Position numbers and translations under genes: made by a program. From positions 1 to 64,000 of IMG/VR virus record IMGVR_UViG_3300050025_000126: a DNA stretch of 64,000 bases; one strand, given 5' to 3'. The stretch is from a virus. Shown here in pieces: positions 13,410-30,423 of the stretch. Below the pieces are notes generated by a model. It had not been told where the DNA came from. It worked only from the letters and a program-made list of their open reading frames with translations, and ran no database searches. Positions within the stretch are counted from its first letter, which is position 1, and every line of letters starts with the position of its first letter.

Positions 13410-15971
13410 GTGGCGTCTCCTTCTACGAATGTAAGTATAGCTTCTAACGCAGCACCCAAAGGAACCTGGGAGGGAGCTACGCCCGTTGAAGGCCCGGTTA
13501 CAGTAGACCAAAATTTAAGACTTGCGTCAGACAATGAACAAGACATCTATGTAGAGGACAGCTTTTGGCCTAGGCCCAATTTGGACCCTACAAAGTGGGA
13601 CCGCCTGTGTCCATATCAGCTTTTAGTAGTCCAAGTCAAGAGAGATAAAACGTATTCTCCTTATAGGGATTGGCAATACACCCTCCCTCTCCCCCCGGAG
13701 TCAATGCAAATATCGACTCCTTTTGCTGTCCAGGGAACCGTGACGCTAGATGGCTATGTAGAAGAACATAACGCAGCGCCCATTAGACACATCGTGTTTA
13801 GAGGGACTACCGGTTTCTTGCCAGCCAGAGATACAGGCGCTTCTAGAGGTGGTACTGGTGCGTTAGGCAAATTAGAAGACCAAGTGACTTCTATCTTTGC
13901 TGGTACGGCTGGGGTCGATAGAGCTATTACCAATGGTGTCAAGCAAGCCTACAACTCAATTACTAATTCTTCCCCTCAAGCCTATAACGTACACCAAACA
14001 GCCGAATTCAATGTTACTACCCAAAATAACCTGTTAGTAAACACAACTGGCTTTGCCCAAATAGCCTTGTTGAGAGACTTCCTAGAATCCTATGTAGCCT
14101 TCAAAAAGAAGAACACCGAGATAGCTAAGACTCTTAGGCTGGCTGTTGCTATATGGAAAGACAATCAGGTCTTCCTAGTAACCCCTCTTTCGTTTGATGT
14201 ATCTAAAGACGCTTCTTCGCCATTGGAATACAAATACTCGTTGGCCTTCAAGGCTTTCAAGCGAATACAATTAGAAGCAGGTAACTTCCTAGACGAATCA
14301 CCTACACCTATCAGGCACTCTCCAAACCTAATTGCTAGAGCTATTAACACTCTTACCAACGCTAGAAGAGCTGTACAGGCTATTGGCACTCTTAACCAGG
14401 CTGTCTTAGGGGATATTGATTATATCTTCAAGCCTTTCCACGATACTATTCTTTTAGGCAAGGATATCCTTGGGGCTACTTTGTCTGTAGAAGATATTCC
14501 TTCAGCCGTTAAAGAGCGGGTCAAGGTAAATATTGTTAATCTCAAGTATGATTCTAATCAACTGTGGAATCAAATTAGCTCTGGTCAAACCTCAAAAGAT
14601 TCGGCTAACTCAGTCAAGACCTATGTATCTGCCAAGCTAAAGGATTTGCCTAGTGGTAGTCCTGATAACCGGTCATCTCAAAGTAACGCGGTTGGTAATA
14701 GGGGTAAGGTAGCTTTAAAGGACATTCCTAATGACTTAGCTAGTCAAATACCTTTGTCCGCCTTGGCCTTGTCTCCTGCAATTACTACCATTATCCTTAA
14801 TGACGTCAAAAGGGTCAGAACACTTAGACGCAAAGACTTTGAAGATTACGCTAATACAATTAGAAACACTGCTGACAAGATAGCTTTCCTTGTAGGAGCT
14901 GGCGACCCTACTTATGCCGAAACCTATGGCATCAATGTGGCTCCTATTAAATCAGAGCCTACTCAAAGCGATTGGGATAACCTCAACGCTTTAAATGACT
15001 CGATAGCTATTATGCAACAGTTTGCTGCTACAGCCGATGGAGAGCCTACCCAAGGCCCAACTTACCTAGAACAATTCGGCGGGCTTGCTGTGGCATCTGG
15101 GATAGCCTGGACGCAACCTGTATCTAAGTTTGCCATTCCATTCCCTTATGGTGGAACGTTGGAGAATTTGGCTTCTACGTATTTGAATGACCCCAATCGA
15201 TTTATGGAGATTGTGGCGTTGAACGGGTTGAGGACGCCTTATGTGGACGAGGTAGGGTATACGATTCCTTTGAATGTAAATGGAAACGGTAAGTCAATTA
15301 TAATACCGTTTAACGCAGATCTATATGTAGGCAAGACGGTTTGGCTTTCTTCTAATGCGTCAAATAGAAATCAGTACACCATCGAAAGTATTCAAACCGT
15401 CCAAGACGTTTCGACTATCAAATTGAATGATACGGTTGATTCCTACAAGACCGCCGACAATGCTCGCCTAGAAGCGTTCCTAAGCGGCACAGTTTGCTCT
15501 AGGAACCTCATTTGGATACCCTCGGATGTAGAACCCCTAGACCCTGAGTCGGTGGTCACAAAAGACATCCCAGGCGTAGACGTGACTGACCCAATGGTTT
15601 CGATTGGGGGAGTTGATTTGATGCTGGGGCCAGACTTGGATTTGGTGCTGGTGGATAATGAGTTGCGTTATAGCGTTGGGTTGGCTAATATTGTGCAGTG
15701 GGTTAGAAGCGTGTTGTCAATTGAAAAAGGCGAATTGCTCCAGCACAAAGACTTGGGCATGCCTCTATCGATTGGCATGTCTCTTGCAGACTTTAACGCC
15801 CAAGACGTCGTAACAGCAATTCGTAAGCAGCTATCCCAGGATTCAACCTTTAGCCGTATTGATAAAATCGTTGTTACTCAAAACGGCCCAGGAGTTAGCA
15901 TCGATATTTCAGCTTTGGTTAGCGGAACGTCTGTCCCCCTTCCTCTGTCATTTGGAATGAGACTATCGTGA
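13410..15971 (+). CDS. Baseplate protein with LysM and gp25-like domains
   Basis: 853 residues. The N-terminal region (YTLPLPPESMQISTPF at about residue 90) resembles tail proteins of the XkdP/gp53 type. A LysM-like segment (GTLENLASTYLNDPNRF to YTIPL) lies at about 577-620. The last 125 residues (GLANIVQWVRSVLSIEKGE, then DLGMPLSIG) match the T4 gp25 / P2 gpW wedge family. So inner-baseplate functions that are separate in T4 appear fused here. The GTG start is set by the late motif 6 bases upstream. Confidence 0.65.
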   Translation: MASPSTNVSIASNAAPKGTWEGATPVEGPVTVDQNLRLASDNEQDIYVEDSFWPRPNLDPTKWDRLCPYQLLVVQVKRDKTYSPYRDWQYTLPLPPESMQISTPFAVQGTVTLDGYVEEHNAAPIRHIVFRGTTGFLPARDTGASRGGTGALGKLEDQVTSIFAGTAGVDRAITNGVKQAYNSITNSSPQAYNVHQTAEFNVTTQNNLLVNTTGFAQIALLRDFLESYVAFKKKNTEIAKTLRLAVAIWKDNQVFLVTPLSFDVSKDASSPLEYKYSLAFKAFKRIQLEAGNFLDESPTPIRHSPNLIARAINTLTNARRAVQAIGTLNQAVLGDIDYIFKPFHDTILLGKDILGATLSVEDIPSAVKERVKVNIVNLKYDSNQLWNQISSGQTSKDSANSVKTYVSAKLKDLPSGSPDNRSSQSNAVGNRGKVALKDIPNDLASQIPLSALALSPAITTIILNDVKRVRTLRRKDFEDYANTIRNTADKIAFLVGAGDPTYAETYGINVAPIKSEPTQSDWDNLNALNDSIAIMQQFAATADGEPTQGPTYLEQFGGLAVASGIAWTQPVSKFAIPFPYGGTLENLASTYLNDPNRFMEIVALNGLRTPYVDEVGYTIPLNVNGNGKSIIIPFNADLYVGKTVWLSSNASNRNQYTIESIQTVQDVSTIKLNDTVDSYKTADNARLEAFLSGTVCSRNLIWIPSDVEPLDPESVVTKDIPGVDVTDPMVSIGGVDLMLGPDLDLVLVDNELRYSVGLANIVQWVRSVLSIEKGELLQHKDLGMPLSIGMSLADFNAQDVVTAIRKQLSQDSTFSRIDKIVVTQNGPGVSIDISALVSGTSVPLPLSFGMRLS

Positions 15972-18665: not shown

Positions 18666-19206
18666 TATTAAAATGCTCGATATTGTGTTCCCGGCAAAAG
18701 CGATTGAGCTTCAAAACGTTGTCTGTGTCATTCAGGCGTTGATACATGCCTCGAATGGTCTTTTCGGGAACCTGGTGGACGTTGCGCTTTAAGGAGGTTT
18801 CGACGCTGATGTTTAGCGTTACGATTACGGTTTTGTAGCCATATGCGTCGGCAATCTTAACGTAATGCGAAAACTCTGATATAGTGGTGTTGGTGTTGTC
18901 GAGGAAGATGCAGGAGTACTTAATTATATTCCACACTCCATTATATAGAGGTGGCCAGTACCCCTGGACACAACTGATAAAACGCCTTAGGCAAGATTGG
19001 TGAGCGAGGCCAATCATAGAGCGGTCAAAGTTATAGGTCCCGGCCTGAATAAAATAACTATCAGCGCTACAATCATTGTACGGGCCTGTAGTTCTTGAAT
19101 ATATCATTTGCTCAATCGTGCTCTTCCCCGCCCCAGGAATTCCTCTCAAAATGAAGACGGTTGGCTTATCGAATTTGACTTGCTGCAAAAATTCTTCTTT
19201 GGTCAT
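18649..19206 (-). CDS. Polynucleotide-kinase-like P-loop kinase
   Basis: 185 residues. Walker A GIPGAGKST at 22-30. SADSYF and LDNTNT downstream are the substrate and Walker-B-like signatures of the T4 Pnk / AAA_33 kinase class, which phosphorylate 5'-OH nucleic-acid ends. A basic lid (SLKRNVHQVPEKTIRGMYQR) follows. There is no fused phosphatase; a separate metallophosphatase lies two genes downstream. The ATG at 19206 is chosen because upstream sequence belongs to 19208-19936. Confidence 0.7.
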   Translation of the reverse strand: MTKEEFLQQVKFDKPTVFILRGIPGAGKSTIEQMIYSRTTGPYNDCSADSYFIQAGTYNFDRSMIGLAHQSCLRRFISCVQGYWPPLYNGVWNIIKYSCIFLDNTNTTISEFSHYVKIADAYGYKTVIVTLNISVETSLKRNVHQVPEKTIRGMYQRLNDTDNVLKLNRFCREHNIEHFNIDTEV

Positions 19207-19207
19207 T

Positions 19208-19936
19208 TTAACCCTTATTGATTTGGCGGCGGTAGACGTCAGCTTTAAAAGTCTTGGCGTTAGTATACCCACTCTTTACCCATTGCTTTCCCCGGAGGTA
19301 TTCGTCTCCTTCCAGGATAACTTCGCCTACGTTCAAAAAGATATAGCATGGGCGATTGACATTAGCAACCTTTTCTTCCTTCACCGGTTGCGTGATCTTG
19401 CGGCGGCAATGACCTACATTGTTCTCCCACAGGGTGTTACCGTCCCACATACCCTGAACCTTCCACCCACCATTCCCGATATTCCATTCGTCAGTTCCTC
19501 GGATCTTGTCTCCCTCTTGGAGGTAATAGTAACCGTTGTTCTTGGCAGGCTTTTGTTTGACTTCAGGCGTCTTAACTTCTACCTTGCGGCGAACGACGAA
19601 GCGCTCACTATAAGTAGAGGCCTCCTTTCCGATTTGGCTGGAGCAACCCATCCAAAAGGCCTCACTGGCGCTAGGGGCAACCTTATAATTAAATTCGTCG
19701 CCCTTTTTAACAATTTCATCGGGCTTCACAACGCGGTAGCCCTTGCCTACATTAAGAGTCTTGACGCGCTTGGCCTTAGACTTGATGGGGCGGCGGTAAC
19801 GGCAGGCTTGGCTATCGTCCAGAACAACTCCTATCATGCTAAGGCACTCTTCATAAATCCCATCAGAACCGGCCCATTCATCGCCCTTACGAATGGTGTC
19901 ACCAGCGGTCAATGTCTTGTATTGTTTGTTTGCCAT
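19208..19936 (-). CDS. YR-family protein, four B-type domains
   Basis: 242 residues made almost entirely of B-type units, each starting Y-x-x-L-x-x-G-[DE] with a GDE about 9 residues on and ending in YRR or RRK. Starts are at about residues 6, 65, 132 and 193. It is the first gene of the operon running to 16313. The -10 box is 7 bases from the ATG at 19936, so the mRNA should be leaderless. Confidence 0.65.
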   Translation of the reverse strand: MANKQYKTLTAGDTIRKGDEWAGSDGIYEECLSMIGVVLDDSQACRYRRPIKSKAKRVKTLNVGKGYRVVKPDEIVKKGDEFNYKVAPSASEAFWMGCSSQIGKEASTYSERFVVRRKVEVKTPEVKQKPAKNNGYYYLQEGDKIRGTDEWNIGNGGWKVQGMWDGNTLWENNVGHCRRKITQPVKEEKVANVNRPCYIFLNVGEVILEGDEYLRGKQWVKSGYTNAKTFKADVYRRQINKG

Positions 19937-19943
19937 GGAAGAC

Positions 19944-19971
19944 ACTTTATCATATTCAGAAACGAAGTCAA
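19944..19971 (-). promoter_or_regulatory. Early promoter for the 19936-16313 operon, leaderless geometry
   Basis: TTGACT (19966-19971), 16 bp, TAAAGT (19944-19949); 7 bases to the ATG at 19936. Back to back with the late motif at 19967-19981. Confidence 0.6.
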
Positions 19972-19981
19972 CAACAATCTT
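19967..19981 (+). promoter_or_regulatory. Late motif, leaderless geometry
   Basis: GTCAACAACAATCTT, directly followed by ATGTGTATG. The second ATG (19988) is 6 bases from the motif, as at the other leaderless late genes. Confidence 0.55.
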
Positions 19982-19987
19982 ATGTGT

Positions 19988-20716
19988 ATGCTCGGCTTCG
20001 TAACCCAAGAACAACCCAATGCGTTAAGGATAGATTATAACTCGAAAGAGTTCTTGAATCTACACAAATCTTTTCCTGTTTTGACACTAGTTGTTAAGAA
20101 GGTTTGTGTGGGGTGTGGAGTTGAAAAGCCTCTGGAAGAATTCTCCCTTCAAAAACTAGGCAAGCTAGGAAGAAGGTCCAGATGTAAAGATTGCATCAGT
20201 CAAGAAAGGTCCGCCTATCTTTTGGAAAATTTAGATAGCGAAAGGGCAAAAAAAAGGAGCTACGCAGCAGCCCACAAAGAACAAGGTAGACTAAGAGGTA
20301 AGAGGTTCCGGGAAAGCAATCCTGATCGACGGCTGGCTATTAGAAAAAAATCGGAGGATAAGTGTAGAGCGTCTAGGAATGAAAGAAACAGATTCAGAAC
20401 AAAAACCGATATTGCCTTTAGATTGAGAAAGGCTATCAGAGGTAGGGTAAACAAATGGGTTAAGGGCATAGGCAAGGCCGGTTCTGGAGTTAAAGATATT
20501 GGTTGCACTATGGAGTTTTTTAAAGGATACATTGAGTCGAAATTTCTTCCCGGAATGAGTTGGGATAACTATGGGTTGAGAGGATGGCACATAGACCATA
20601 TCGAACCTTTAATTAATTTTGATCCTACAGACAGGGGGCAATTTCTTAAGGCGTGCCACTACACTAACCTACAGCCCTTGTGGTGGCTGGAGAACCTTTC
20701 TAAGGGGAGTAAATAA
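19988..20716 (+). CDS. HNH homing endonuclease with zinc-finger domain
   Basis: 242 residues from the ATG at 19988 (an ATG at 19982 is also in frame). A zinc finger (CVGCGVEKPLEEFS, then CKDC) lies at about 38-65, a long basic helical linker follows, and the C-terminus has HIDHIEPLI with a later YTNLQPLWW, the catalytic and metal-binding signature of HNH endonucleases. It is likely a selfish homing element placed between a late promoter and gene 20717-22882. Its stop TAA is one base from the next start. Confidence 0.7.
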   Translation: MLGFVTQEQPNALRIDYNSKEFLNLHKSFPVLTLVVKKVCVGCGVEKPLEEFSLQKLGKLGRRSRCKDCISQERSAYLLENLDSERAKKRSYAAAHKEQGRLRGKRFRESNPDRRLAIRKKSEDKCRASRNERNRFRTKTDIAFRLRKAIRGRVNKWVKGIGKAGSGVKDIGCTMEFFKGYIESKFLPGMSWDNYGLRGWHIDHIEPLINFDPTDRGQFLKACHYTNLQPLWWLENLSKGSK

Positions 20717-22882
20717 GTGGCAGTGGTGTTTGTAGCGTGGGACGGCGACTTTATTGGCAAGCTGATAGGCCAAGCCCGCCTTCACGATGACCCAGATGCG
20801 CTTAGAAAGGTCGCCTCTTCTATCGATAGAGGTAACCAGCTTTTTAACAATTGGGCTGTAAACCACGGTGGAACAGCTATCAGCGCTGGTGGAGACGAGG
20901 GAATAGTAAGCGTTCCAGCTACAGCTCTTGCTGACTTACAAGACATCAAGTCAAAGTATGAAGATGCCCTTACCGTAACTGTTTCGATTGGCGTGGGGAT
21001 GCGTATGAGCCAGGCTTTCACCGCGCTTCTAGCTTCTAAGTTAAGAGGTAAGAATAGGGTGACAATGTACGATAAAGACGTACAGGACGAAGTAAACGAA
21101 GCCTCAAAGAGCGAAGACACAGAAAAACAAAAACTAGCCAAAGAATACCTATCAAAAGCCCAAACCATAACACACACAGGCGATGGCGGCAAACCAAGTA
21201 GCTATCAAGTCCAGGAACAGTCTGCTAATCCCGAAATACAGCAGCAACAGGACCTAGAAGGCTTTAAGCACCAAGTACCAGAAGATATCAATAATTTTGA
21301 AGCAGAATTCCACAAGATAGCCGCTGAATCAGAAAAGAAAGACCAAGCCTTCAAAGCCTCTAAATCGACTGACCTAAAAGCCCTTAAGCAAAAGGTCGCT
21401 CAATCGCTACAGGCTATCCATCAACAGCTACCTCAATTAGCAGAAATCAAGCAAGCCGCTCCTGAAACCTATGCAGCCGTAATAGGGGTTGTACAGGGTC
21501 TAATAGCAATGGGCAGGCAGCTACAGCAAAACGACCAACAATTAGCAAAAGCTATTGGTGTAAAAAGAAAGGCTTGGACCGGTGGAGGAGCTACTATTCC
21601 TGCTTACGGTACTCCTGAACGAGCTAAGTGGGAAAACAATTATAAACAGGCTGTAGCCAATTACTTTACTGAAGGCCAAGCCCACAAGCTTAAACTAGTC
21701 AAATTCCCTATTGATAAAGTTGACCGGTCTCATGCTGTATTTGGTAATGAAGCCAAGACTCGATTATATCATAGGATGGTCGTTGGTGGTGATCGGTTGC
21801 CTCCTTCTTATGGAGCTGTGCGTAACGGACGTCTTAGAATCGTAGACGGTAATCGCAGGCTAGATGTTGCTTTAGCTAACAAACTACCCCATATCGAGGC
21901 TTATGTTCAAAAATCGGAAGTAAACGTAACCCACAATGATAGTCTACCTCCAGCTGGTATGACCGCTACTTCTACAGGTGGCTTTGAGAATTATGATTTG
22001 GGGATGGATAAGGCGGATTTAATGCCAGGCGGTCTAGCTGATAATCTAAGGCCTGAAAACTTCGACCAAGAGCAATTAGCAATAGGGGAACAACACGAGC
22101 TAGAACATACGAATGACCCCCAATTAGCTTGTGAAATTGCTATGGATCATCTGGCAGAAGATCCTGATTACTACAAGCAGGATGAAGATTTAGACAAAGA
22201 GCCGTTGCAGAAGATGGCCCTTATTCATAATGACCCTAACAAGCCAATGACGGTTTATAGGGTACAGAATGCTAATGGTGAGGGGCCGTATAGTCCTACT
22301 GATAGGCACGACGTTCCTATGAATACTCCCAAAGGAAGTAGCCCTTTACCAGAAGACGATTTTTCTGCGAATGATTGGGGTATTCAAACGGGGGAACACC
22401 GGTTTGGCTTTGAGAAACCGGAACACGCAAAAAAGTGGTTTGGCGAGGACATCCTTAACCGATTGGGCACTCGCGGGTTTGCGTTAGAACCGGTGAAGGC
22501 AAGAAGGGTCTATCGCAGCAAGTCTGGAAGGCAAGTCTTCTTCCTCCCTCACGAATCTGAGACCAAACTTCAAATGGCTAAATCAGATTGGCCTATGTCT
22601 GAAGACAAAGAAGAGCTTGACCCTTCCCAGCCAGTAAAAGAAAGCAAAGTCTTGGACAAGGGCGTTATGCCAGAGCACATTGCGTCAATGAAAGCCAAAC
22701 ACAAATTAGTGCCTGGCGAAATTTTAGATTCGAGGCATTTGGTAGGAGTTTCGCCTAGTGGAAAAAACGTGGTAAGAGAGGTCAGCGCGGGAATGCAACG
22801 CGACCTGTCAGAGACCAGCAACACAACAGGACCAGGCGAAGGACAGCCTACCTCCGCTAGGAACCGGCCAAGCAGGACTTAA
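20717..22882 (+). CDS. Cas10-palm / mCpol-like domain protein with ParB-like domain
   Basis: 721 residues, GTG start. Residues 1-120 carry the palm-polymerase pattern of minimal CRISPR polymerases: WDGDFIG (Asp9, Asp11), GGDE at 58-61, SIGVG near 88 and LASKLRGKNRV near 104. These Asp and Glu residues would bind metal and NTP. A long Gln- and Lys-rich helical region follows. Residues about 325-395 look like a ParB/sulfiredoxin fold (IVDGNRRLDVA). A further folded module lies at about 510-610 (VYRVQNANGEGPY to RQVFF). It lies in a late block behind an HNH gene. Cyclic or linear oligonucleotide synthesis is inference. Confidence 0.6.
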   Translation: MAVVFVAWDGDFIGKLIGQARLHDDPDALRKVASSIDRGNQLFNNWAVNHGGTAISAGGDEGIVSVPATALADLQDIKSKYEDALTVTVSIGVGMRMSQAFTALLASKLRGKNRVTMYDKDVQDEVNEASKSEDTEKQKLAKEYLSKAQTITHTGDGGKPSSYQVQEQSANPEIQQQQDLEGFKHQVPEDINNFEAEFHKIAAESEKKDQAFKASKSTDLKALKQKVAQSLQAIHQQLPQLAEIKQAAPETYAAVIGVVQGLIAMGRQLQQNDQQLAKAIGVKRKAWTGGGATIPAYGTPERAKWENNYKQAVANYFTEGQAHKLKLVKFPIDKVDRSHAVFGNEAKTRLYHRMVVGGDRLPPSYGAVRNGRLRIVDGNRRLDVALANKLPHIEAYVQKSEVNVTHNDSLPPAGMTATSTGGFENYDLGMDKADLMPGGLADNLRPENFDQEQLAIGEQHELEHTNDPQLACEIAMDHLAEDPDYYKQDEDLDKEPLQKMALIHNDPNKPMTVYRVQNANGEGPYSPTDRHDVPMNTPKGSSPLPEDDFSANDWGIQTGEHRFGFEKPEHAKKWFGEDILNRLGTRGFALEPVKARRVYRSKSGRQVFFLPHESETKLQMAKSDWPMSEDKEELDPSQPVKESKVLDKGVMPEHIASMKAKHKLVPGEILDSRHLVGVSPSGKNVVREVSAGMQRDLSETSNTTGPGEGQPTSARNRPSRT

Positions 22883-23399
22883 TCGTCTCGAAAGCTTCAG
22901 TAAGCTTCTCCAGCTTCTCTTTAAGTTCCTTGTTTTCTTGGCGCAGTCTGTTAAGTTCTTCCTGTACTGCGCAATTCGTTGCCGGTTCCTTTTCGGCTGC
23001 TTCTGCCTTCGGCTTATTCTCAGCCGCACTTGAGCCGCTTACTTCGGTGGTTGTGTTTCCTTTATAGACCCGAGCGTCCCCATAGACCCGAGCGTTCCCA
23101 GAGACCCGAGCGTTCCCATAGACCCGAGCGTCCCCATAGACCCAAGCGTTCCCAGAGACCCAAGCGTTCCCATAGACCCAAGCGTCCCCATAGACCCAAG
23201 CGTTCCCAGAGACCCAAGCGTCCCCATAGACCCAAGCGTTCCCAGAGTGGTCTAGATTTCGCTCCGCTTCAATAAATCCGCCTGGTTCGCCCTTTTTAAC
23301 ATCGCCAAACGCGCGCAGCGCGACAATGCGATGTAAGATGGCGCCGTAATGATCGACAGTTTCTTTTGTGAACTTGTACTTCTTTTGGGGCTTTGCCAT
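22857..23399 (-). CDS. Hexapeptide-repeat left-handed beta-helix protein
   Basis: 180 residues from the ATG at 23399 (AAAGGA upstream). After an N-terminal domain of about 50 residues come ten 6-residue units of the type G-[ND]-A-[WR]-V-[YS] (about 51-112), which form a left-handed beta helix as in YdcK-like and polymer-type phage proteins. The first six units have Trp and the last four Arg at the third position. A linker and a C-terminal coiled coil (LNRLRQENKELKEKLEKL) follow. The gene overlaps the end of 20717-22882 convergently. Role unknown. Confidence 0.65.
   Translation of the reverse strand: MAKPQKKYKFTKETVDHYGAILHRIVALRAFGDVKKGEPGGFIEAERNLDHSGNAWVYGDAWVSGNAWVYGDAWVYGNAWVSGNAWVYGDARVYGNARVSGNARVYGDARVYKGNTTTEVSGSSAAENKPKAEAAEKEPATNCAVQEELNRLRQENKELKEKLEKLTEAFETIKSCLAGS
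23063..23247 (-). repeat. 18-bp tandem repeat inside the beta-helix gene
   Basis: About ten units of 18 bp, differing at a few positions (TTCCCAGAGACC and TCCCCATAGACC versions on the + strand). Each unit encodes one hexapeptide. It is a coding repeat, prone to slippage. Confidence 0.85.
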
Positions 23400-23445
23400 G
23401 TTTGGGTCCTTTGCTAGAGTTTGCTTAATCTTTGAAAGTGAAACT

Positions 23446-23474
23446 AGTCTATACCGGGTCTGGGGAAGAGTCAA
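23446..23474 (-). promoter_or_regulatory. Early promoter for 22857-23399
   Basis: TTGACT (23469-23474), 17 bp, TAGACT (23446-23451) on the - strand. The ATCTTT sequence next to the -35 box resembles half of the late motif, although no + strand gene starts here. Confidence 0.5.
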
Positions 23475-23481
23475 TCTTTAT

Positions 23482-24258
23482 TTAGGCAGTAAGCTGTCGG
23501 GGAGCCGCTCCTAGACTAGGCTTAGCTCCTCCCAGATTGATTTTAGAGCCCGCTTCTTTGCCTTGGGTATGTGCATCCCGGTTAATGTAAGACTTGCTCT
23601 GTGCGACGTTCTTAAGGGCTGGCTTGATTTGGTTAAAATACTTCTCGACTTCCTTGTGGTCTTGACGCACCAGAACCATTGCCTTGGAATCGGTGACTGA
23701 TTCAACCTTCTCTGCCGCAACCTGTTCAATCAAGCGGCGGTAAATTTCATTTGACGCACCAAGGAAGAACGAATTCTTGTAATGTTTCCCGTGGATTCGG
23801 TTGGCTTCCACAGGAGAAAAGGCATTAAAATTAAGCCATGCGTTATTAGCCAGTCGTTCAATCTCTTTCTCCAGGTAAAGGTACATATAATTGGCGGTCT
23901 GAACGTTAGCGCGACGACCCACAACCTTGAAACGATTGTGCTTGGTACGGTTGGGATACTCGCCCTCGATAACGTAGGTGTACCAGCCGTGGCAGTGGAA
24001 GGCCTTGATAAGACCCATGAGGATGTTGCTCTTCCAGGTAATAACACGCTGGCCATTGACGCCGTCCCAAAAGATATTATCAATCGGGTCAGAGTTTGAT
24101 GCACCGCTTTCAACCCTCAAATCGGCCTCTTCAAGCTCATAGTCGGCCATCATCTGGGCAGCCTTACCAGCAGCCGCAGCAGCTTCGTTAGCGTTAGAGC
24201 TGGTGGAAAGGGCCAAGAGCTTCTTGATTCGGTCAATGATTTTTGAAGTGTTTTCCAT
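23482..24258 (-). CDS. DUF2786-family protein
   Basis: 258 residues. The N-terminus, IDRIKKLLALSTSSNANEAA followed by KAAQMMADYEL, is the helical DUF2786 signature. The rest has the basic and aromatic composition of the C-terminal domain that usually goes with it (often named DUF7168). The molecular function of the family is unknown; it is common in phages. The -10 box is 7 bases from the ATG, so the mRNA should be leaderless. Confidence 0.7.
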   Translation of the reverse strand: MENTSKIIDRIKKLLALSTSSNANEAAAAAGKAAQMMADYELEEADLRVESGASNSDPIDNIFWDGVNGQRVITWKSNILMGLIKAFHCHGWYTYVIEGEYPNRTKHNRFKVVGRRANVQTANYMYLYLEKEIERLANNAWLNFNAFSPVEANRIHGKHYKNSFFLGASNEIYRRLIEQVAAEKVESVTDSKAMVLVRQDHKEVEKYFNQIKPALKNVAQSKSYINRDAHTQGKEAGSKINLGGAKPSLGAAPRQLTA

Positions 24259-24265
24259 GGAAGAG

Positions 24266-24294
24266 ACCTTAGCTCAGGAGCCAAAACAAGTCAA
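24266..24294 (-). promoter_or_regulatory. Early promoter for 23482-24258, leaderless geometry
   Basis: TTGACT (24289-24294), 17 bp, TAAGGT (24266-24271); 7 bases to the ATG at 24258. Confidence 0.55.
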
Positions 24295-24304
24295 CAACAA
24301 TCTT
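24290..24304 (+). promoter_or_regulatory. Late motif, leaderless geometry
   Basis: GTCAACAACAATCTT, then 6 bases (TTTAAA), then GTG at 24311. The motif decides this start over upstream in-frame codons that would overlap the divergent gene. Confidence 0.6.
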
Positions 24305-24310
24305 TTTAAA

Positions 24311-25369
24311 GTGCCACTAGACGCATTGTCACCAAAAATAAGGCCTCGGGATGGGGCGGATGTAACCGAGGCTTTTGGTATATTCTCGGGGGATATCCTT
24401 ATTATGAATGCGTTGCGCTATGGGTTACAAGACCTTCGTGACAACCCGTGGCAATTAACTTTAGTCTTTGCGTCATTGTTAAACGATCCTCTTACCGCAG
24501 AAGCCTACGGACAGAAAGAGGCCCAGAAGGCAATTGATTGGTTTCTAAAGACGAGCGTGCCAGTTATTCTTGACGCAACTCTTACTAATAGTCCAGCAAT
24601 GCCCTGTGTCATTGTCGGCCTGCAAGACTCCAACGAAGCTCAGGCCACTCTTGCCGATCTGCATTATGTACCCCATCAAACCGTTGAAAGCGAATGGGAG
24701 CCTCTAACACAGAAATTCTCGGCTGTTTACGATCCTTCTACAGGCCTAGTTATCCCTTCTGTCCCCGTAATCGTCAACAATCAAATGGTCCTGTTTGATA
24801 AGAACGGTTCTACCTTTCCTGTTCTAGACACTCAAATAGATATCAACGGTAATGAAAACTTCCTGATTACTAAAAATGCTCCTAATGCTGATTTTAGTCA
24901 ATGTGTATTGAAATGGGCCACCAATAGGGTGTCGGTTCAGTTAGAGTCTTTGGTCTTTAGCGAGACTTATAACATAGTGTGTAATACCAAAGGCGAGCCT
25001 AGTTATACGTTATATCTTTATTCTATAATTAAGTATATCCTCCTGAGGTACAAGAAAACATTGCTTGAGGGTCGAGGATTTGAGAACACCACGATTAAAT
25101 GTAGTCGACTCATGCCTAACAACACCCTAGGTCCTGCTGGTTCAGAAAATATCTGGACACGGGTAATTACTATTACAGGTCTCGTTCGTGAATCCTGGGC
25201 GACTACAACTTCAGAACGTATTACCCAAGCCTCTTATAACAACGCTGGCCCCGATGGTTTACTTGTCTCTCAAAAAGATTTCTTGCCAAGCGGATTTAAA
25301 GCAGACCCAGCTCAATCAGACCCTTCATATTTGGCGGGCCTTGGCGATGGAATAGGAGTTAAGTTGTAA
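24311..25369 (+). CDS. Structural protein of the tail/neck block, unidentified
   Basis: 352 residues from the GTG at 24311. The frame stays open for 36 codons upstream, but that stretch overlaps the divergent DUF2786 gene and precedes the late motif. The beginning, PLDALSPKIRPRDGADV, and a later LLRYKKTLLEGRGFENT segment look like a conserved virion protein of large myoviruses, but I cannot name it. It lies four genes before the sheath gene and overlaps the next gene by one base (TAATGG). A neck, tail-completion or baseplate role is possible. Confidence 0.45.
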   Translation: MPLDALSPKIRPRDGADVTEAFGIFSGDILIMNALRYGLQDLRDNPWQLTLVFASLLNDPLTAEAYGQKEAQKAIDWFLKTSVPVILDATLTNSPAMPCVIVGLQDSNEAQATLADLHYVPHQTVESEWEPLTQKFSAVYDPSTGLVIPSVPVIVNNQMVLFDKNGSTFPVLDTQIDINGNENFLITKNAPNADFSQCVLKWATNRVSVQLESLVFSETYNIVCNTKGEPSYTLYLYSIIKYILLRYKKTLLEGRGFENTTIKCSRLMPNNTLGPAGSENIWTRVITITGLVRESWATTTSERITQASYNNAGPDGLLVSQKDFLPSGFKADPAQSDPSYLAGLGDGIGVKL

Positions 25370-27894: not shown

Positions 27895-30423
27895 ATGGCA
27901 CTTCAATACACAACTTCAAATGGTCAGACCCTAATCGTACCTGGTGGATATGCCGATTCTCAGGTAGTAGCTACCCCTTCGCAGGTTGCTGCTAATGGTA
28001 TTCTAATGGTAGTGGGTGAAGCTGATTCTGGTCCTTCATATGCAGAAGAGCTAGACATCACCCAGAATGCCTTTGGTCCTGATCAAAAATCGGATATCAT
28101 TGCTAAGTATGGTTCCGGTCAACTTGTAGATGCTTTCGTAGGGGCTGTAACTGCTTCTAATGATAATCGTATCAAGGGTGCTTTTACTCGATTTGTAGTC
28201 GCTAAGACCAACACATCTGTAAAGTCGTCTACCTTGCTACCTGCTATTGGTGGTGGTACTTATGCTAACGTTGTAGCTAAGTCAGCTGGTAAGCCAGGCA
28301 ATCTAATTACAAGGGCGGTAACAGCGGCTAAGGTTGAAATTGGGCCTGTTGTAGGTCCAGCTGTTCTAGCTTCTCCTCAGGTTGTTACAGATGTGACAGC
28401 CCGCATTAGTGGTGGAGCTGCTCTTACAATTGGCGGAAGTCATCTAGCTGTAGGTGCAACTCCCACAGCTCTTGTATCCGCCCTAGGCGCCCTTACTGGC
28501 GTCACCACTTCTGGCGGTGCAGCAAGAGGCCTAATCGGTACTACACGAAACGTAACTGTAGGTAACATTTCGGGGTTATCGGCTACTTTAATCGCTACTA
28601 CAAATTGGGCAGCTCTTCCAGTTGTAGGCGATATTCTTTATCTCCCTGCGGCTTCTGCGTTTAATGCAGCAAATCACGGTACCTGGGTTGTCACTTCAGT
28701 AAGCTCTAGCGGTATCTCTGCTCTAAAAGTAATGGACGCTACTGGCGCTGGTTTTGACCGTGCAGCTCCTTTTGCTGAAACAGTTGCAGCAGCTGCTCCT
28801 GCTGATATGGAAAGTTACAGCCCAGTTACAATCGGTCTAACTGTAGCTGGCGGTGGTGGGTCTCCTGGTCTAGGTCGTTCGCTTGAACTAGCCGATAACA
28901 GCCTTGTTGCTGGTTTGTTCTCTAATCTACTTTGGTCATACAGCCCAACTCTATTAACTGTAAAGCGCTATGGAGCTGTCTCTACTTCTGTTACTCCGGT
29001 TGTTGTTTCTTCTTCACAAGAATACGAAGTAGACCTTAACCTAGTACGTCAAAAAGACGGTATTTCCGAAAATATCGTTGTAGGTGGAAGTCCTGTTCTT
29101 AGCCTTGGTTACGCTGGGACAACTGCTCAAGCTGTAATCAACAATGGAACGATGGTTCTTACCTTGACTGGTGGAGCTTCGGTTTCGTTGTCGCCTATTA
29201 CAATTACTTTGAACGACTTCCCAACTATTGGCGACTTGTGTCAATATCTAAAGGCTTTCGGTGGTTTTACTGCCGCGCCAAGTCTAGCTACCTTCTCCTC
29301 AATCAGTCCAACCCGCCTTGACCCTGGTACCTACAACTTCGGTACCACTTGGGGCGCTATGACTGGTCGTATTAAGACAGACGGCGCAGATTTCCTAGAC
29401 GCCGTTAACTCCCAATCGGTCCTAGTTAACGTAACTCCTCCAAATGTCGCAAGTGTCCTTGTTGGTCTACCCGATATCGCTTCTCTAGGCTTCCTATCTG
29501 GCGGTTCTAGGGGCGGTACGAGCAACGCCAGTATCCAGGGCGCTCTAGATAGTTTGCAGGCCGTAAAGGGCAACCTGGTTATTCCGCTGTTTTCAAATGA
29601 TTCGACAGTAGATGTTGCAGATGGTTCAACCGACCCAAGTTCTGTTTATGACATTGCGTCAATTAATACAGCGGTAAGGGCACATTGTCTCCAAATGTCG
29701 CAGCTGAAGATTAGGAAGCGCCGCATTGGTATGCTTTCAAATCGTGACACGTTTAGTAACAACAAGACCAACGCCTCCAACATCGCTAATTCGCGTTGCG
29801 TTATGACCTTCCAAGACGTAAAAGACAACAACGCTCTAGGTAGCCTAGTTTCTTTCAAGCCCTGGATGGCCGCTATCAAAGCAGGCGGTATGCAAGCTGC
29901 TGGGTTCTACAAAGACATTACCCACAAATACACTACGGTTAGTTCTGCAACTGTTCCTGGTGGTGGCTTTACTTACAATATCAATTCTAATCTAGAAGAT
30001 GCCCTAACTTCAGGTCTACTACCTCTTATTTTTGATGGCAGTGGCTTTAAGTGGGTTTCTGACCAGACTACTTACTCCGTTGACGACAATTTCGTTTTCA
30101 ACTCATTGCAAGCAATGTACGCCCTCGATATTATCATGGCTACAAGCGAACAACGTATGGAACGGGCGTTCACTGGTGAATCATTAGCGGACGTTTCAGC
30201 TACTACAGCTGTTACAGTCTTTGGCGCTATTATGGACGATTTAATGCGTCTAAAGTTAATTGCTCCTTCAGACGATGCCCCTCGTGGTTTCAAGAATGTC
30301 GTTATCAAGATTGTAAACGGCAATGCGATGGTTGTAGGGGCAGAAATCAAGCTTGCTACTTCAATTAAGTTTGAAAGCATCTTATTCATGGTGTCGGCGA
30401 TCCAACAAGTAGCTCAAGGTTAA
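27895..30423 (+). CDS. Tail sheath protein
   Basis: 842 residues. The N-terminus is VPGGYADSQVVA with an early GxxxGxxA-like pattern. The C-terminal 150 residues (NSLQAMYALDIIMATSEQRM, then PRGFKNVVIKIVNGN) have the helix and final strand typical of contractile sheath proteins, where the strand interlocks neighbouring subunits. It is long for a sheath (T4 gp18 is 659), with the extra sequence in the outer, variable middle. The tail-tube gene follows directly, as in most myoviruses. Confidence 0.8.
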   Translation: MALQYTTSNGQTLIVPGGYADSQVVATPSQVAANGILMVVGEADSGPSYAEELDITQNAFGPDQKSDIIAKYGSGQLVDAFVGAVTASNDNRIKGAFTRFVVAKTNTSVKSSTLLPAIGGGTYANVVAKSAGKPGNLITRAVTAAKVEIGPVVGPAVLASPQVVTDVTARISGGAALTIGGSHLAVGATPTALVSALGALTGVTTSGGAARGLIGTTRNVTVGNISGLSATLIATTNWAALPVVGDILYLPAASAFNAANHGTWVVTSVSSSGISALKVMDATGAGFDRAAPFAETVAAAAPADMESYSPVTIGLTVAGGGGSPGLGRSLELADNSLVAGLFSNLLWSYSPTLLTVKRYGAVSTSVTPVVVSSSQEYEVDLNLVRQKDGISENIVVGGSPVLSLGYAGTTAQAVINNGTMVLTLTGGASVSLSPITITLNDFPTIGDLCQYLKAFGGFTAAPSLATFSSISPTRLDPGTYNFGTTWGAMTGRIKTDGADFLDAVNSQSVLVNVTPPNVASVLVGLPDIASLGFLSGGSRGGTSNASIQGALDSLQAVKGNLVIPLFSNDSTVDVADGSTDPSSVYDIASINTAVRAHCLQMSQLKIRKRRIGMLSNRDTFSNNKTNASNIANSRCVMTFQDVKDNNALGSLVSFKPWMAAIKAGGMQAAGFYKDITHKYTTVSSATVPGGGFTYNINSNLEDALTSGLLPLIFDGSGFKWVSDQTTYSVDDNFVFNSLQAMYALDIIMATSEQRMERAFTGESLADVSATTAVTVFGAIMDDLMRLKLIAPSDDAPRGFKNVVIKIVNGNAMVVGAEIKLATSIKFESILFMVSAIQQVAQG

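Follow-up and report, generated by a model that had tools for sequence, protein, structure and literature searches.

A minimal CRISPR polymerase (mCpol) domain in a modular protein encoded at the virion gene locus of Mx1-like phages

The minimal CRISPR polymerase (mCpol) domain, reportedly defined in a 2015 paper, is the synthase of an anti-phage system, and phages counter such signals with sponges and nucleases. We know of no phage so far that makes these immune signals itself, and no prior report of a phage mCpol was found in the literature that we searched; the 2015 paper lay outside that search and may mention it. In bacteria, the mCpol enzyme OptS is a stand-alone protein paired with a 2TM effector (PMC12657218, PMC12657230), and the residues D6 and D57 of KpOptS hold metals and are required for activity (PMC12657218). 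Polyvalent proteins (Iyer et al. 2017, PMC5512222) are multi-module proteins encoded beside virion genes, include ParB-like and GGDEF domains, and have been proposed to undergo packaging and injection.

The stretch analyzed here, called the window, comprises 64,000 nucleotides of a 107,276-base virus record. An ORF of 721 aa with a GTG start was confirmed in it (Table 1), and all motifs from which the initial annotation had proposed an mCpol-like N-terminal domain were present in the real ORF where it had placed them: D9-G-D11-F-I-G14, G58-G-D60-E61, S90-I-G-V-G94, and LASKLRGKNRV at 105-115. IVDGNRRLDVA, the motif behind the proposed ParB-like domain, lies at about residues 375-385. The Pfam mCpol profile PF18182 scored 47.8 bits (cut-off 26.4), with the match spanning its entire 114 positions, and the NCBIfam mCpol profile NF033576 scored 40.6 bits (cut-off 40). 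The single window sequence matched the PDB OptS/mCpol chains 9nwn and 9mnr at E values of 2e-7 to 4e-7, and with the family profile as query, the OptS/mCpol matches reached 1.5e-14. PF18182 was also above its cut-off on bacterial Cas10-sized proteins of 550-730 aa, so the score alone is not decisive, and fold and architecture count. Residues 1-130, whose structural comparison the initial annotation had suggested, were modeled by AlphaFold2 with a pLDDT of about 97 (34-row alignment), and the first 6 Foldseek matches in the PDB were all OptS/mCpol chains (target-normalized TM 0.77-0.85, rmsd 1.7-2.6 Å). GGDEF domains, which belong to the same superfamily as mCpol, gave weaker fold matches and ranked below all 6 of these chains, and PF00990 (GGDEF) had no match in the window protein. 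Cas10 palm2 (PF22335), a related palm fold with a DGD...GGD layout, scored 21.8-25.1 bits, under the cut-off of 27, and no other Cas10 domain was found. The preference for mCpol over GGDEF or Cas10 was thereby upheld and, judged by profiles and predicted fold, the window protein belongs to the mCpol domain family.

The window domain is of the same family as Panoptes OptS/mCpol (PDB 9mnr, 9pd0, and 9nwn) and shares its fold and length as well as the two Asp residues that bind metal, D9 and D60 aligning with D6 and D57 of KpOptS in the sequence alignment. In contrast to OptS, the window mCpol forms the N-terminal module of a protein from a phage virion locus and has no effector partner, and its base-contact residues differ. 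The nucleobase-contact positions S30 and N34 of KpOptS are A33 and D37 in the window protein, so its product may differ from that of OptS. In the tree, bacterial mCpols form their own clade (100/97), distinct from the phage sequences; the Cas10 rows group separately (99/96). Panoptes is a bacterial locus, often near CBASS, whereas the window gene lies at a phage virion-gene locus; no S-2TMbeta, 2TM-CARF, or 2TM-SAVED effector was identified between mCpol and the downstream gene g24203 in 24 loci, where the next gene was soluble or absent. As the paired effector gene is absent, this is not a Panoptes system.

We identified 35 distinct mCpol homologues in Mx1-like contractile phages, upstream of the tail sheath; PF18182 matched 32 of the 34 family members scanned, and the mCpol gene is a trait of a whole phage family, not a one-phage oddity. 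A single-sequence scan of viral contigs and a scan of genome contigs, both with the mCpol domain, gave no matches because of excessive divergence, and an alignment of seven rows contained no sufficiently conserved stretch; homologues were retrieved with the sheath profile and with close sub-alignments, and 80 viral loci were collected with the sheath as bait. Where found, the mCpol gene shares its strand with the g24203 family and the sheath and precedes both, at 0-5 kb from g24203 in most loci and about 9-15 kb upstream in G008, G016, G017, and G024. Loci lacking mCpol mostly stop within a few kb of g24203 on its upstream side, which makes absence there unreadable. The nearest cultured relative among the phages compared is the contractile-tailed Myxococcus phage Mx1 (169,621 bp), whose genes run in the order terminase, portal, protease, GGDEF, scaffold-position gene, MCP, ..., mCpol homologue, ..., sheath. 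Its orthologue WNM70340.1, annotated only as a hypothetical protein, has 27% identity over residues 4-269. This place between the MCP and sheath genes, together with the genes of the relatives upstream of the sheath, bears out the late or structural context initially proposed; the mCpol gene is closer to the tail genes than to the head genes. The g24203 protein has no PDB relative by sequence.

The gene adjoining mCpol is usually phrog_16819, which encodes a soluble protein of 270-310 aa with no TM segment (19 loci). No phrog_16819 homologue was found in the window's 107 kb record, and the gene is missing in the window clade. At the place that it takes in most relatives, the window has 2 minus-strand ORFs (22857-24258), a YdcK-like beta-solenoid and a DUF2786/DUF7168 protein, the former overlapping the 3' end of the mCpol gene. 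On the other side, a long plus-strand ORF (19076-20716), HNH endonuclease-like in its C-terminal third, stops one base before the mCpol start; a relative occupies 79301-79957 in the record, and a similar insertion lies near the mCpol gene in L062.

Table 1. Features of the mCpol gene and its surroundings, in window coordinates
Feature	Position	Strand	Evidence or remark
Baseplate protein	13410..15971	+	phrog_975 E 8.6e-15
mCpol-containing multi-module protein, 721 aa	20717..22882	+	PF18182, NF033576; 35 distinct family mCpol sequences
mCpol domain, residues 5-118, D9/D11/D60/E61/K108 present	20729..21070	+	PF18182 E 2.1e-12, OptS fold, invariant columns
K131-S-E, predicted protease site, first K[SA][ED] in the protein, directly after mCpol domain	21107..21115	+	K[SA][ED] enrichment
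Conserved helical segment, residues 135-282	21119..21562	+	Kept even in mCpol-less relative
ParB-like module, residues 281-420	21557..21976	+	Missing in close relative L006
K399-S-E, predicted site near module border	21911..21919	+	K[SA][ED] motif
K432-A-D, predicted site near module border	22010..22018	+	K[SA][ED] motif
DUF5661 module, residues 448-490	22058..22186	+	PF18905 E 9.4e-9; present in many homologues
phrog_1106-like module, residues 509-636	22241..22624	+	E 3.3e-13; missing in L003, L006
K622-S-D, predicted site near module border	22580..22588	+	K[SA][ED] motif
Conserved C-terminal domain, last 75 residues, '..GK..VR..SAG....PTSARN.PSR'	22655..22879	+	Only in this family among the loci scanned
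Syntenic neighbor g24203, phrog_1000, weak SP10 terminator match	24203..25369	+	Downstream of mCpol gene in relatives
Tail sheath, synteny anchor	27895..30423	+	phrog_279 E 4.5e-19; 37-41% to Mx1 sheath

Three parts make up the family core: mCpol, about 150 residues of helical sequence, and a domain at the C-terminus that ends in a motif such as SSRNPxGK. Exchangeable modules sit between the core parts, these being ParB-like, DUF5661, and phrog_1106 in the window protein, and among relatives 60-68% identical, the ParB and phrog_1106 modules are gained or lost with clean borders. In record G023, the family protein is present without the mCpol domain and the remainder is kept. The ParB-like part of the initial annotation gained support from a profile match to ParB (4umk, E 2.5e-4) and from ParB_N in 2 of 5 members; its "third module" in fact comprises several (helices, DUF5661, phrog_1106, and the C-terminal domain). 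Residues 281-721 gave a low-confidence structure prediction (pLDDT 48.5) and were left out of the fold search. Like polyvalent proteins, the window protein combines several unrelated domains (mCpol, ParB-like, DUF5661, and phrog_1106) beside virion genes. Unlike them, its family keeps the helical segment and the C-terminal domain as a constant body, holds a syntenic place upstream of the sheath, and has K[SA][ED] linkers, and mCpol is not mentioned among the polyvalent proteins of PMC5512222. A role of the C-terminal domain as a targeting tag common to other phage proteins was rejected, as the domain was seen solely in the mCpol family in the loci scanned. The ParB-like module of the window protein was also identified in Mx1 WNM70333 (L001:2436-6875), a 1479-aa protein annotated as Nudix that has some K[SA][ED] enrichment, and in 2 mCpol homologues (L027:4436-6526 and L039:10001-12130), a long stretch resembling, by eye, a HipA-like kinase replaces ParB.

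The active site was counted as intact where both D9 and D60 are kept, which was the case in 24 of the 35 homologues and not in the other 11, and its state changed at least 4 times on the tree. Although D11, G59, E61, K108, and G111 lie outside this definition, they are invariant in the 24 intact members, which argues for selection for catalysis in most lineages, and K108 is also gone in most of the 11 degraded members. The site is broken, with the domain conserved, in Mx1, L019/L020, and L121/L122, for example; WNM70340.1 of Mx1 has lost the catalytic motifs (SID, LGAV), and no isolate with an intact mCpol is among the phages compared. Two degraded pairs have a dN/dS of 0.14, indicating purifying selection and hence a non-catalytic second use of the domain there. 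Catalysis is dispensable, to judge from the sequences of these 11 members. The mCpol domain is cargo-like, being active-looking, dead, or absent while the body is kept.

The 35 mCpol proteins contain 81 K[SA][ED] sites, compared with 34 expected from shuffling (z 7), and 80 of the 81 are outside the mCpol domain. The second residue ahead of the K is mostly L, V, M, or I, giving [LVMI]xK[SA][ED]. Three control tripeptides were flat in the mCpol family, and K[SA][ED] was not enriched in the sheath and g24203 families. Only 13 of the 35 members, with about 6 expected, have such a site in the 40 aa that follow mCpol. Stronger enrichment was found for the gene immediately preceding MCP, with 52 sites in 12 homologues against 14 expected (z 10.8), and Mx1 WNM70326, with 5 sites against 0.9 expected, was the strongest among the Mx1 genes tested. 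WNM70326 lies just upstream of MCP, is rich in alanine and proline, and has a heptad-like stretch; by this position and composition, its family is a putative scaffold. Scaffold is a standard prohead-protease substrate in tailed phages, and Mx1 encodes a head-maturation protease (WNM70322, phrog_1028). The K[SA][ED] sites are probably the prohead-protease cleavage sites of this phage group, and the mCpol protein may likewise enter the prohead and be cut at its linkers. Packaging is predicted from synteny and one tripeptide. In Mx1, the scaffold-position protein with its strong [LVMI]xK[SA][ED] enrichment lies at L123:18798-19670, and its homologues are at L178-L194.

We tentatively favor, as a reading that may well be wrong, a protein of the polyvalent type that is packaged in the head, processed by the protease, and injected, its mCpol module producing a cyclic nucleotide once inside the new host. 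The gene product would be a modular, virion-associated, and most likely prohead-internal protein of Mx1-like phages, with the helical segment and the C-terminal domain serving as a packaging or anchoring body. The N-terminal mCpol would be catalytically competent, dimerize, bind two NTPs via the metals held by D9 and D60, and link these to form a cyclic dinucleotide. As the head matures, the prohead protease would cut the linkers at [LVMI]xK[SA][ED], releasing mCpol and the other modules, which could then exit the head together with the DNA and act like polyvalent-protein effectors. In the new host, the cyclase might flood or bias second-messenger signaling before phage gene expression, with CBASS, Panoptes, type III CRISPR effectors, and host cyclic-dinucleotide circuits as candidate targets. 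Points against this reading are the 11 broken sites, the small number of members with a K[SA][ED] site soon after mCpol, the differing base-contact residues, and the nearness of the gene to the tail genes. As the protein looks built for packing into the virion and for cutting, the phage may deliver a second-messenger synthase of its own to the cell.

Several other explanations have to be weighed against packaging and injection of an active synthase. The mCpol fold might instead be a structural or oligomerizing part of the virion (neck, tail, or prohead core), with catalysis vestigial and the conserved residues stabilizing the fold or binding nucleotide without turnover. That the domain is kept despite a lost site in 11 of the 35 members, in two pairs under purifying selection, agrees with such a role, as does its conserved place beside the tail genes; the full catalytic set including K108 is invariant in 24 members, however, and the protease-associated GGDEF domains are mostly intact too. 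The fold is also not an essential building part, since the relative without mCpol keeps the rest of the protein, and we regard a purely structural role as fairly unlikely. The dead yet conserved versions noted above would suit a decoy or competitor, acting either by binding cyclic nucleotides of the host or by poisoning its mCpol/Cas10 dimers, but the window copy and most of its relatives have an intact site, which makes a catalytically dead protein quite improbable here.

The intact site and the late-gene place would both be expected of a cyclase that is expressed late and never packaged, altering host second messengers in lysis or assembly or blocking superinfecting phages. Against this stands the conserved body with protease-like sites in common with the scaffold-position protein, which suggests prohead entry, and we consider the non-packaged cyclase unlikely. 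Very improbable is a phage-borne Panoptes-like pair, with a neighboring gene for a toxic effector that the mCpol product keeps in check: mCpol is indeed the family of the Panoptes signal synthase, but no 2TM, CARF, or SAVED effector adjoins the gene, and the usual neighbor phrog_16819 is soluble. A conserved mCpol module at the virion locus of an entire phage group, with the site mostly kept, would invert the roles known from defense. If active, it could enable phages to keep Panoptes-type effectors restrained or to jam CBASS or type III receptors, and it would be a minimal cyclase with differing base-contact residues.

Mx1-like phages further have a true GGDEF domain, separate from mCpol, at the prohead protease. 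In Mx1, the GGDEF protein WNM70324 between protease and MCP (L123:17173-17904) matched PF00990 at 38.4 bits (cut-off 23.8), and the domain was identified in 17 of 36 records and in 12 of the 14 relatives of at least 120 kb, in or beside the protease gene; in several relatives, GGDEF and protease form one ORF. The GGDEF active-site motif is intact in most (loci L125-L140 and Mx1); in the window's closest relative, L140 (G004), it is broken, and Mx1 combines a dead mCpol with an intact GGDEF. PF00990 had no match in the window's 107 kb record, where homologues of the Mx1 terminase, portal, protease, and MCP were likewise not found, so the absence of GGDEF there is uninformative. Complementary loss of the 2 domains was considered and rejected because the records are too few: both were intact in 11 records, mCpol was dead in 5, GGDEF was dead in 1, and both were dead in 0, with about 0.3 double losses expected by chance. 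Mx1-like phages might load both the mCpol and the GGDEF synthases into the head via the prohead protease pathway and inject them, for counter-immunity or host takeover. This wider proposal we hold to be doubtful; if it is true, virion enzymes would make signal nucleotides from the first minute of infection. The Mx1 protease and MCP (L123:13002-16721 and 19703-21103) also have a segment in common, KAMEAGNFNAxPSTLxxGSA, which is N-terminal in MCP.
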